A stretch of 24,200 nucleotides of DNA from positions 1 to 24,200 of IMG/VR virus record IMGVR_UViG_3300034082_002385; one strand, written 5' to 3'. The notes beneath the pieces are model-generated. The model was not told where the DNA came from, ran no database searches, and saw only the letters and a program-made list of their open reading frames with translations. Shown piece by piece: positions 4,902 to 7,473 of this stretch (positions within the stretch are counted from its first letter, which is position 1; each line of letters starts with the position of its first letter). This DNA comes from a virus. A program made the translations under genes and the position numbers.

Positions 4902-5465
4902 TTATTTATGGTTAAATTTACCAAAGTAGGTATAACTGCTTAGACGCAGATGATTGGCTGGAATTTTATTTAGCATGCCGTGATATTGTCCTGCATGATT
5001 GAGCATTAAATATCCTGTGTTGATCTTGTACGGAAACGCATAACGCACCTGCTGCCCTTGGGCGTCATGGTAAAACACTGTGCCTAGATCAGCTGCCGCT
5101 TGAGTTAGGTAAACCTGCATGGCCATTAAGGGATTGTATTCACGCTCGGCGCCATCTTCGTGTATGCTACAATCAAATCCTTCGTAGTCTAGCCAGAAAC
5201 TGCTCCAGCACTGCTGGTGTTCAAATACCACGTGGGCGGCAGCAGCAATTTGATCAATGGCATGATTATAATGTTGGTCAACTTGCTGCAGCAGATCACC
5301 ATCGTTGACTATCAGTTTGCGTCTTTTCCAGTCCAGCTGCATGCGTTGTTGTTCCCAGGGATATTGCCAAAGATCCTGCTGTCCAATACTGAGCAACAAA
5401 GATTCCGGCAACACATCTTCAACAGTGAATAGATCCGGCACATGATCAACAGGTGTTATTTTCAT
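4902..5465 (-). CDS. 2-oxoglutarate/Fe(II)-dependent oxygenase-like protein
   Basis: This 187-residue protein carries the iron triad of the 2OG oxygenase (DSBH) fold: H102-E-D104 in CSIHEDGAE, distal H162 in GQYHGML, and R174 in HLRLSSY, placed to bind the 2-oxoglutarate carboxylate. The reaction would be hydroxylation of a protein, nucleic acid or small molecule with O2 and 2-oxoglutarate; the substrate cannot be read from the sequence. Such enzymes are common in aquatic T4-like phages. Its ATG overlaps the stop of the C-terminal terminase gene (ATGA, 5465-5462), so it is translationally coupled to the packaging motor. No signal peptide is seen, so it should be cytoplasmic. Confidence 0.75.
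4903..4910 (-). promoter_or_regulatory. Late promoter octamer 7 nt before the 482-aa gene
   Basis: CATAAATA on the minus strand, followed by seven bases and the ATG at 4895-4893. It overlaps the last codons and stop of the oxygenase gene upstream (CAT AAA TAA). There is no Shine-Dalgarno between motif and start. With the usual T4 late geometry the transcript would begin at or next to the start codon. Confidence 0.6.
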
Positions 5466-6844
5466 ATCATTATAAAAGGCATTGGAGCTATGTAGTCATC
5501 TGCACTGTCACGCATTTTTTCATCCAGGTCTGAATCATAACTTTGCAATGCCTGTATCATGCGCAACGATAGCAAAGTGGCACTGACCAAGTCGTCAGTT
5601 TCCCCAGTTTTGGCTTCAAATCCCACGCCATGAGCCACAAAGGTTTTTAATTCACTGATCAGGTTCTTGCTGTTAATGGTTATCTTTTTATTTTCTATCA
5701 GGTTTTTGAGTTTGGCACATACCGTAATCTTGCTCTTGTTGGTTGTTGTGAACCCTTTACGATGCGCTCTAGGCTGCCCTAGTTTATGCGGCTGACTTAA
5801 AAATATTCCGCGTATGTTTTCCTCACCAATTTCTGCAATTACCACCAATGCAGCTTCGCCCAGTGAGTTATTCTCTACGCTGTAGTACACGTCGTTCTGT
5901 GTACCAATGGTGTCATATAGATATTCACATATTTCTTTAAGAATTGTAATTTGCCTTTGGATTGGTGTTTTGTTATTTTGCCATTCGCCAATCTGTATCA
6001 TGGTAGGCAACTCAAATATTTGTATAGCAGCAGGGTCGCCACCGGTGCCCAGGCTAGGATCCAGGCCAACCACATAAGTTTTCCCACGACGTGGCTTTTG
6101 GTACCAGCGTACCTGCCCTTGCCGTTCAATTGGTTCTGCTCCTGTCAGTTCAGACAGTTTGATACTGTCAATCAAGGTCTCATCATAGATCAAAAATTCA
6201 CAGCCGTGCTCACGTCTGAATCTTTCTTCGCCGATACGACCCATTTCTTCCGCTTTCCATTGCTCATCTCTATCTGGGTGTTCGTCCCAACGACTTTGAT
6301 ACGCTTTGAATCCGTTAATACCAACTTTGGTGGGATTTCCAAAACTGTCCACACATTTGTTGGCTTGTTTCCATATATAAGCAAATTGATCTTCGTCACT
6401 GTTTGGCGTACTTGTAATAATTGCCTTACCACCAGTGCTTAGTGTGGGCGATATACTAGTCCAGAACTCTTTGGCTATAGTTGGGCGCACGAATGCAAAC
6501 TCGTCACATTGATGCGAATGAATATTGTTAGCCAATATAACATGATTCTTTGCATTAAATATTTCGTAAGTATCAACTAATTTAGTATCAATTATTTCCG
6601 CTACTATTAGGGATCCATTATCTGAATCAAGACAGTCACCGGCTACAATATCACTGACTTTTTTTTCTTGTTTGTTAATAAAAAAACGATGTTCATTGGT
6701 TGCAGTAATATTAGTACCATCAGCAAACACTAACTTTTTTGATAATTTATTTGCATTTTGATTTAAAAAAATTCCATCAAAGTTTTCCCATCCGTTGGGA
6801 GTAAGAATTTCGTATTCTGTATTGTTAGCAAATGTTTGCTTCAT
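5462..6844 (-). CDS. 17: Large terminase gp17, C-terminal half with N-terminal intein C-fragment
   Basis: Residues 1-112 form the C-fragment of a split intein: TATNEHRFF (block B, TxxH), [18 protein letters not shown] (block F) and IHSHQ ending just before Cys113. The C-extein begins CDEFAFVRP (Walker B Asp-Glu) and continues with the coupling motif ITSTPN (143-148). The RNase-H-like nuclease follows, with acidic residues D262 (VVGLDPSLG), E324 ([10 protein letters not shown]) and D417/D418 ([11 protein letters not shown]). Product: after trans-splicing with the 6841-7473 protein, the ATPase/nuclease motor that cuts concatemers and pumps DNA into the prohead. The start ATG overlaps the upstream stop (ATGA) and lacks a Shine-Dalgarno, so translation probably depends on re-initiation. 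The layout resembles atypically split terminase inteins known from metagenomes (AceL-TerL type). Confidence 0.9.
6509..6844 (-). other. Split intein C-fragment (112 residues)
   Basis: This coding segment is the intein part of the C-terminal terminase ORF. Residues 9-25 ([17 protein letters not shown]) resemble the start of the AceL-TerL C-fragment as I remember it. Block B is TATNEHRF. The penultimate His is H111 and the last residue is Gln112, followed by the nucleophile Cys113 of the C-extein. There is no homing endonuclease domain: length and motifs fit a mini-intein. Confidence 0.85.
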
Positions 6845-7473
6845 ATATTTGGTGGGTTGTATAATTGGATGTACAAGTCTTTTAATGTGATATCTTCTTC
6901 GACCATGGTTTGTTTGTTGCGAATTTTAACCGTTGTGGTTTCCCCGTCTAAGCAGTATAGTAGGGTAATACTCATACCACGACCAGTTGTTTCTGTTGTT
7001 GTCTGACTTACTATACGACTTCCATTTTCAAAGTCTATACTGCCTTTGTTGTAGCTTGTTACTCCTGCACGTATAAAGTCCGGGCACAATTCATAGGCGT
7101 AACGCACACGCTGCATGATCTCTTGTGCGCCTGTGTACTTGTGTGCAGCAATAAGTATGGTTGAATCTGGTTGAAACATGGCAAACCATAACAGGTAGCC
7201 GGCGGCGCTGGTGGTTTTGCCAGTCTGCCTGGGCATGAGGCTGATACTGAATCTGTTTTGATGGTAAGAATCTATTAGACGTTTTTGGTATTCAAACGGG
7301 TGATACAACATTTTGCCCCGAGTAGGGTGTTGTATATAAAAGTAGTTGTCCATGAAATATCTAGGTCCATCCACCGGATCTGCGCATTTTACAAATTCTC
7401 GTATTTGATCTTCGGAAAAGTTGACCTTTTGATAAGGACTCTTTATAATAGCTGTTTCAATGGGTCTATTCAT
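6841..7473 (-). CDS. 17: Large terminase gp17, N-terminal half ending in intein N-fragment
   Basis: Of 210 residues, 1-173 are terminase and 174-210 intein. The terminase part has the adenine-binding/Q-motif region (about 57-64, YHPFEYQKR), Walker A PRQTGKTT at 81-88, and a strand leading into Walker B ([10 protein letters not shown], 164-173). It stops exactly before the Asp-Glu of Walker B, which is supplied by the next ORF. Alone it cannot be a working ATPase. Spliced length would be 173 + 348 = 521 residues, shorter than T4 gp17 (610) but with all catalytic motifs. There is no Shine-Dalgarno at the ATG. A one-mismatch late octamer (CATAAGTA, 7487-7480) ends 6 nt upstream. It is head to head with the HNH gene with 11 nt between start codons. 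Confidence 0.92.
6844..6954 (-). other. Split intein N-fragment (37 residues)
   Basis: These are the last 37 codons of the N-terminal terminase ORF. The fragment begins with Cys174 (block [12 protein letters not shown]) directly after the extein residues LLY. It ends [14 protein letters not shown] and then TGA. A very short N-fragment (25-37 residues) is the hallmark of atypically split inteins; most natural split inteins have N-fragments of about 100 residues. Confidence 0.85.
7421..7449 (+). promoter_or_regulatory. Near-consensus sigma70 promoter for the HNH gene, inside terminase coding sequence
   Basis: TTGACC (7421-7426), a 17-nt spacer, and TATAAT (7444-7449) on the plus strand: eleven of twelve consensus bases with ideal spacing. 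Transcription would start near 7456, about 29 nt before the HNH ATG at 7485. It lies antisense within the first codons of the N-terminal terminase gene. Confidence 0.75.

Follow-up and report, generated by a model that had tools for sequence, protein, structure and literature searches.

The window analysed here, a 24,200-nt stretch of the IMG/VR virus record IMGVR_UViG_3300034082_002385 that represents a 24.2-kb genome fragment, encodes a phage terminase large subunit (TerL), the essential motor of DNA packaging, divided between two overlapping genes (Table 1). The first (7473-6841, minus strand) specifies a 210-aa protein made of TerL residues 1-173 and a 37-aa N-terminal intein fragment (IntN), and the second (6844-5462, minus strand) a 460-aa protein with a 112-aa C-terminal intein fragment (IntC) followed by 348 TerL residues starting with CDEFAFVRP, so that the computed length of the spliced protein is 521 aa (173+348). 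The ORFs, their frames, the 37- and 112-aa fragments, the ATGA overlap and the 521-aa product had all been described in a first-pass annotation, and every one of these values was exact on recomputation. The identification of the gene as a large terminase also held, since both the N and the C extein halves match T4 gp17 in the PDB (E=5e-24 and E=2e-18, respectively) and TerL families in PHROGs (E down to 7e-86). Likewise, the split is not an assembly frameshift, as a second contig (L001), 99.988% identical over 8215 bp (1 mismatch), has the identical junction. We found no Shine-Dalgarno-like site at the IntC start in the ATGA overlap.

Table 1. Features of the split terL locus in the 24,200-nt window
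Feature	Positions	Strand	Description
N-extein (TerL residues 1-173)	6955..7473	-	Walker A (PRQTGKTT); C-terminal end ...TLLY
IntN, 37 aa	6844..6954	-	Block A; Cys1 codon 6952-6954; ends just past helix alpha-1; stop TGA 6841-6843
ATGA overlap	6841..6844	-	Stop of TerL-N/IntN and start of IntC/TerL-C
IntC, 112 aa	6509..6844	-	Block B (ATNEH), block F (VDTYEIFN), block G (NNIHSHQ); C-terminal Gln codon 6509-6511
C-extein (TerL residues 174-521)	5462..6508	-	+1 Cys, Walker B acids (CDEF), then RNase H-like nuclease domain; stop 5462-5464

The interruption lies inside the Walker B motif, at LLY|CDEF. In several sibling sequences with an empty site (L003, L004, L005, L010, L013, L008 and L087), LLYCDEF is uninterrupted; at the exact insertion position these alleles read ...CTATAC^TGTGACGAG... 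or ...CTATAC^TGTGACGAGTTT..., with no gap, and their exteins align across the site to the spliced coding sequence of the window with 72-81% DNA identity. The Walker B region of gp17 aligns at the same position. Because the inserted segment parts the hydrophobic Walker B strand from the Asp-Glu pair, the alignment with gp17 suggests that the unspliced TerL halves should be devoid of ATPase activity.

Profile searches had been proposed as a check by the first-pass annotation. The best single match of IntC among PDB sequences is the consensus intein CatC (E=6e-7), and a profile of the family inserted at this site matches gp41-1 (1.5e-10), CatC (1e-9) and VidaL (0.002); IntN alone, with its 37 aa too short to score, found nothing meaningful among PDB sequences, and the Pfam and NCBIfam intein models either miss the Walker-B family or score it below their cut-offs. 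A natural contiguous (fused) homologue, L016, aligns at its start to all 37 IntN residues (76% identity) and at its other end to all 112 IntC residues (62% identity), with an 11-residue linker in between. The AlphaFold model of this single-chain homologue, standing in for the two fragments of the window, adopts the HINT fold (pLDDT 92.9, pTM 0.85) and aligns in VIA-align with many solved inteins at Z 17-19, including VidaL (Z 17.8, rmsd 2.0 over 133 residues). Its helix 24-31 stops just before the split point, which corresponds to the S2 position.

We collected 37 distinct inteins at the Walker-B site, including that of the window, with the N part available for 32 of them. The class 1 nucleophile at position 1 is conserved in all of the latter (Cys1, 32/32), and the block-B [AC]TxxH motif, the penultimate His of block G and the +1 Cys, always as Cys-Asp-Glu-Phe, are each found in 37/37. 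The C-terminal residue of the intein in the window is Gln (HSHQ|C), a point absent from the first-pass annotation, and the usual Asn is lacking; Gln, which like Asp is a cyclisable variant residue, takes the place of Asn in all 37. Intein dN/dS values are ~0.04-0.35 in most pairs with informative dS, the L019/L036 pair being too close (dS 0.01) to be informative. In the alignment used (A1), the first few IntC residues are misplaced. The interruption of TerL is thus very likely a split intein, encoded in two genes and split near its N-terminus into a 37-aa IntN and a 112-aa IntC, in keeping with the 15-37 aa IntN range of atypically split inteins (PMC13014065). The atypical split intein seen by the first-pass annotation is accordingly supported by sequence, by the predicted fold of the homologue, by conservation and by the empty-site alleles.

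Most relatives in this widespread family are fractured genes, in which an IntN gene, a ~300-aa ORF and an IntC gene follow one another and the halves lie ~880-905 bp apart. The intervening ORF, which we take to be a putative homing endonuclease, carries a conserved DH...N...N pattern and is related to phrog_5104 (function unknown), with weak HNH and endonuclease VII-like signals. It had no match among PDB sequences, and its model (pLDDT 84.7) gave structure matches of Z 2-3 at best, several of them to HNH nucleases, which is suggestive only. The window and L001 differ from this layout: they have no endonuclease ORF between the halves, which overlap by 4 nt. The ORF is also absent from the split inteins of L061 (16-nt gap) and L048 (24-nt gap), a 95-aa remnant of it is left in L056/L066, and the inteins of L016-18 and L024/25 are fused into single ORFs. 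It appears that the window lost the endonuclease ORF yet stayed split, and that other lineages lost the ORF and re-fused.

Both independently fused inteins contain a perfect in-frame hairpin between IntN and IntC, where the endonuclease ORF was (L016:4950-5000 and L024:800-878, with 12-bp and 18-bp stems), and 0/500 shuffles folded as well; these hairpins are possibly a template-switch scar of the endonuclease deletion. L075 is apparently a chimeric intein, with an IntN of the Walker-B family (L075:5505-5630) whose partner is an IntC of another type, ending in KN|C (6564-6890), and the C-terminal part of the ORF between its halves differs. No relative turned up when GTDB genome contigs were scanned with the fused homologue.

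A near copy of the start of the TerL C-extein, TGTGAYGARTTYGCNTTYGTN, is located just upstream of the endonuclease ORF in 23/27 distinct fractured loci, among them L023, L037, L055, L006 and L007, where it lies shortly past IntN. It scores 18-21 of the 21 positions of the degenerate motif, against a shuffled maximum of 15-17, and in 20 loci it is overlapped by TATAAATA. This arrangement resembles the operator of I-TevI, a homing-site copy that overlaps a late promoter and mediates autorepression (PMC2988022). By analogy, the target-like copy may be an operator for self-repression of the endonuclease; alternatively, it could be a relic of insertion.

On the TerL extein tree (128 rows), the presence of the intein requires 12 changes, 10 of them forced by well-supported branches. 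The window and L001 belong to a group of 7 rows (99% SH-aLRT) whose other 5 rows are empty. Several pairs combine very similar inteins with strongly diverged TerLs: dS is 0 for the IntC of L024/L055 but 1.31 for their C-exteins, 0.11 for the inteins of L022/L037 but 2.76 for their exteins, and 0.03 for the inteins of L006/L016, whose extein dS is saturated. High DNA identity reaches just ~30 nt into the exteins. Near-identical inteins in such divergent TerLs imply that the element moves; the pattern is the one predicted for recent homing, and other recombination could give the same.

Other pieces of terL-related sequence surround this family. An HNH gene (7485-8015, plus strand), divergent from terL, was considered as the homing endonuclease of the intein and rejected: it is not part of the intein because copies at the same place occur in many intein-less siblings (55-93% identity), those in empty-site siblings being 84-93% identical. 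It probably belongs to the packaging module. TerL relatives have a second intein site at Walker A (PRQTGK|TT), where the inteins are contiguous in most cases, mostly with apparent class 3 and LAGLIDADG features (judged by eye), and split in L063, L044 and SCTP-2. A third site, REYG|CEF, holds split inteins. In L063:358-5438 the Walker A, Walker B and CEF sites all carry atypically split inteins, so that this TerL is apparently made from four ORFs. In the cultured Salicola phage SCTP-2 (MF360958), TerL is dispersed over three genes with split-intein ends (L152:4001-6085, L153:1207-2100 and L154:1375-1767), near 429.5, 256.7 and 218 kb of the 440-kb record and all annotated as terminase large subunit; the second has an IntN of ~95 aa, seemingly with a block-B-like stretch additional to that of its IntC partner. 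TerL is fractured at a CEF-like site (H|CAEF) in Providencia phage PSTRCR_127 and Serratia phage 92A1, and the ORF between the PSTRCR_127 halves has, by eye, the look of a GIY-YIG protein. The Campylobacter phages NCTC12673 (L158) and IBB_35 (L159) also have TerL in pieces with intein-like ends, and the TerL-C ORF of NCTC12673 (442 aa, L158:2498-3826) has no CDS annotation in the record. Finally, a TerL-ATPase-like ORF, 34% identical, with VDEAG as Walker B and without a nuclease domain, is found directly upstream of the fractured terL in L022 (301-1128), and also in L023, L037, L046 and L056.

We consider it highly probable that the window carries a class 1 intein, split after the first helix (S2), which interrupts a phage terL inside Walker B, trans-splices to give TerL and is an endonuclease-less remnant of a mobile form. 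Each gene would yield a polypeptide of its own, and translation of the second is probably coupled to that of the first through the ATGA overlap. IntN would dock on IntC and complete the HINT domain, Cys1 would form a thioester, the +1 Cys would then take over the N-extein, and cyclisation of the C-terminal Gln would free the intein, leaving a 521-aa TerL with its Walker B (LLY-CDEF) restored. The ancestor would have been a mobile fractured gene with a presumed endonuclease encoded between the halves, and deletion of that ORF in the phage of the window would have left a compact, splicing-only, still-split remnant. Active trans-splicing to the 521-aa protein, as proposed by the first-pass annotation, is itself likely, with about the same strong confidence. 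Points against the whole reading are the lack of a Shine-Dalgarno-like sequence at the IntC start, the use of a fused homologue for the predicted fold, the slowing of some inteins by a C-terminal Gln (PMC4031507) and the possibility that the rest of the genome holds a second intact TerL.

The joining could instead occur during translation, if a -1 frameshift at the overlap produced a contiguous precursor from which a cis-intein then spliced itself out. The same intein does exist in fused cis form (L016-18 and L024/25), and the frame of IntC remains open over some codons ahead of its ATG, but no X XXY YYZ slippery heptamer lies within 110 nt of the end of the first ORF and most relatives have between the halves a ~900-bp ORF that frameshifting could not bridge, which implies that the halves should already work in trans. 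We regard this route as very unlikely. Slightly less credible still is a decayed relic: the two parts of TerL would come together unspliced, or the phage would rely on another terL, this one being a pseudogene. The loss of the endonuclease ORF in the window, the incompleteness of the genome (a 24.2-kb fragment leaves room for a second intact TerL elsewhere) and the extra truncated TerL-like ORF upstream in some relatives (L022) would agree with decay; against it, no catalytic position has been lost, both reading frames remain open, most dN/dS values lie well under 1, and no ATP hydrolysis is expected from an unspliced protein whose Walker B strand is cut off from the catalytic Asp-Glu. Phage terL genes can contain introns, as in ICP1 (PMC10448857), but the DNA inserted here encodes protein that has intein motifs and is predicted to take the HINT fold, and the junction shared with the independent contig L001 argues against misassembly, so that a group I intron, like an assembly error, has almost negligible probability.

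Trans-splicing by a split intein being the preferred reading, a broader scenario can be put forward tentatively, to which we grant a little less than an even chance. A mobile, always Gln-ended family of split inteins, trans-splicing by Gln cyclisation, would have spread among phage terminases by means of an intervening endonuclease, possibly self-repressing via a target-like operator, and would persist as a splicing-only remnant or re-fuse after loss of the endonuclease; together with the two further TerL sites, it would allow some phages to build their motor from up to four polypeptides via several orthogonal split inteins. The 37 distinct members make up an additional family of split inteins that combine a short IntN with an unusual Gln at the C-terminus; they might serve in protein labelling and in studies of how inteins ending in Gln splice in trans. 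One gene family seems to display a split-intein life cycle (endonuclease-borne invasion, endonuclease loss, persistence as a split form and re-fusion), and the related fractured terminases of the cultured phages Salicola SCTP-2, Providencia PSTRCR_127 and Serratia 92A1 make it directly testable.

Atypically split TerL inteins were already known, with IntN fragments of 25 aa in AceL, 37 aa in GOS and 30 aa in Cat (PMC13014065, PMC11766414), and those of AceL and GOS are split at S2 (PMC13014065). The intein of the window shares with AceL-TerL and GOS-TerL the phage TerL host, a short IntN (25 and 37 aa), an IntC of 104-115 aa, the split past helix alpha-1 (S2) and the +1 Cys. The first-pass annotation suspected a distinct member since 37 aa exceeds the 25 aa of AceL; this argument is wrong because the GOS-TerL IntN also has 37 aa (PMC11766414), and IntN length has to be discarded as a distinguishing mark. 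The intein is nevertheless distinct by its Walker-B site, its invariant Gln and its own clade. Compared with AceL and GOS, the Walker-B family occupies LLY|CDEF, always ends in Gln and, in the window, is devoid of an endonuclease. In the engineered Cat-TerL (PDB 6dsl), CatC has the C-extein CE, in contrast with the CDEF of the window, and it matches relatives at the REYG|CEF site better (5e-12) than the IntC of the window (6e-7); reasoning from CatC rather than from the native genes, AceL and GOS are probably alleles of the REYG|CEF site and not of the Walker-B one. VidaL (PDB 6vgv) has a 16-aa IntN split at S1 (PMC13014065) and a weak profile match (0.002). Like the Walker-B family, it is atypically split and has the HINT fold.

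The layout common to most Walker-B relatives is that of the fractured genes AceL NrdHF and MIJ3 PolB, from which the window and L001 differ in having no endonuclease ORF. Such fractured genes were reportedly described by Dassa in 2009 as split inteins with an intervening homing endonuclease. The best profile match of the family in the PDB, gp41-1 (1.5e-10), described in its entry as cyanophage-like, is split at the canonical position and differs from the intein of the window in both host gene and split position. As in the window, the inteins of CIV RNR and of the P. abyssi and P. horikoshii PolII have Gln instead of Asn at their C-terminal splice junction, but these are, as far as is known, single-chain inteins, whereas the Walker-B family is naturally split and has Gln in all 37 distinct members. 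Gln-ended inteins do splice, some of them slowly (PMC4031507, PMC8175363). The literature searched, with thin coverage of intein papers, yielded no natural split intein with a C-terminal Gln. As far as a limited search of the accessible literature goes, the Walker-B family, its invariant Gln and the series leading from fractured genes through endonuclease-free split forms to fused inteins are new.
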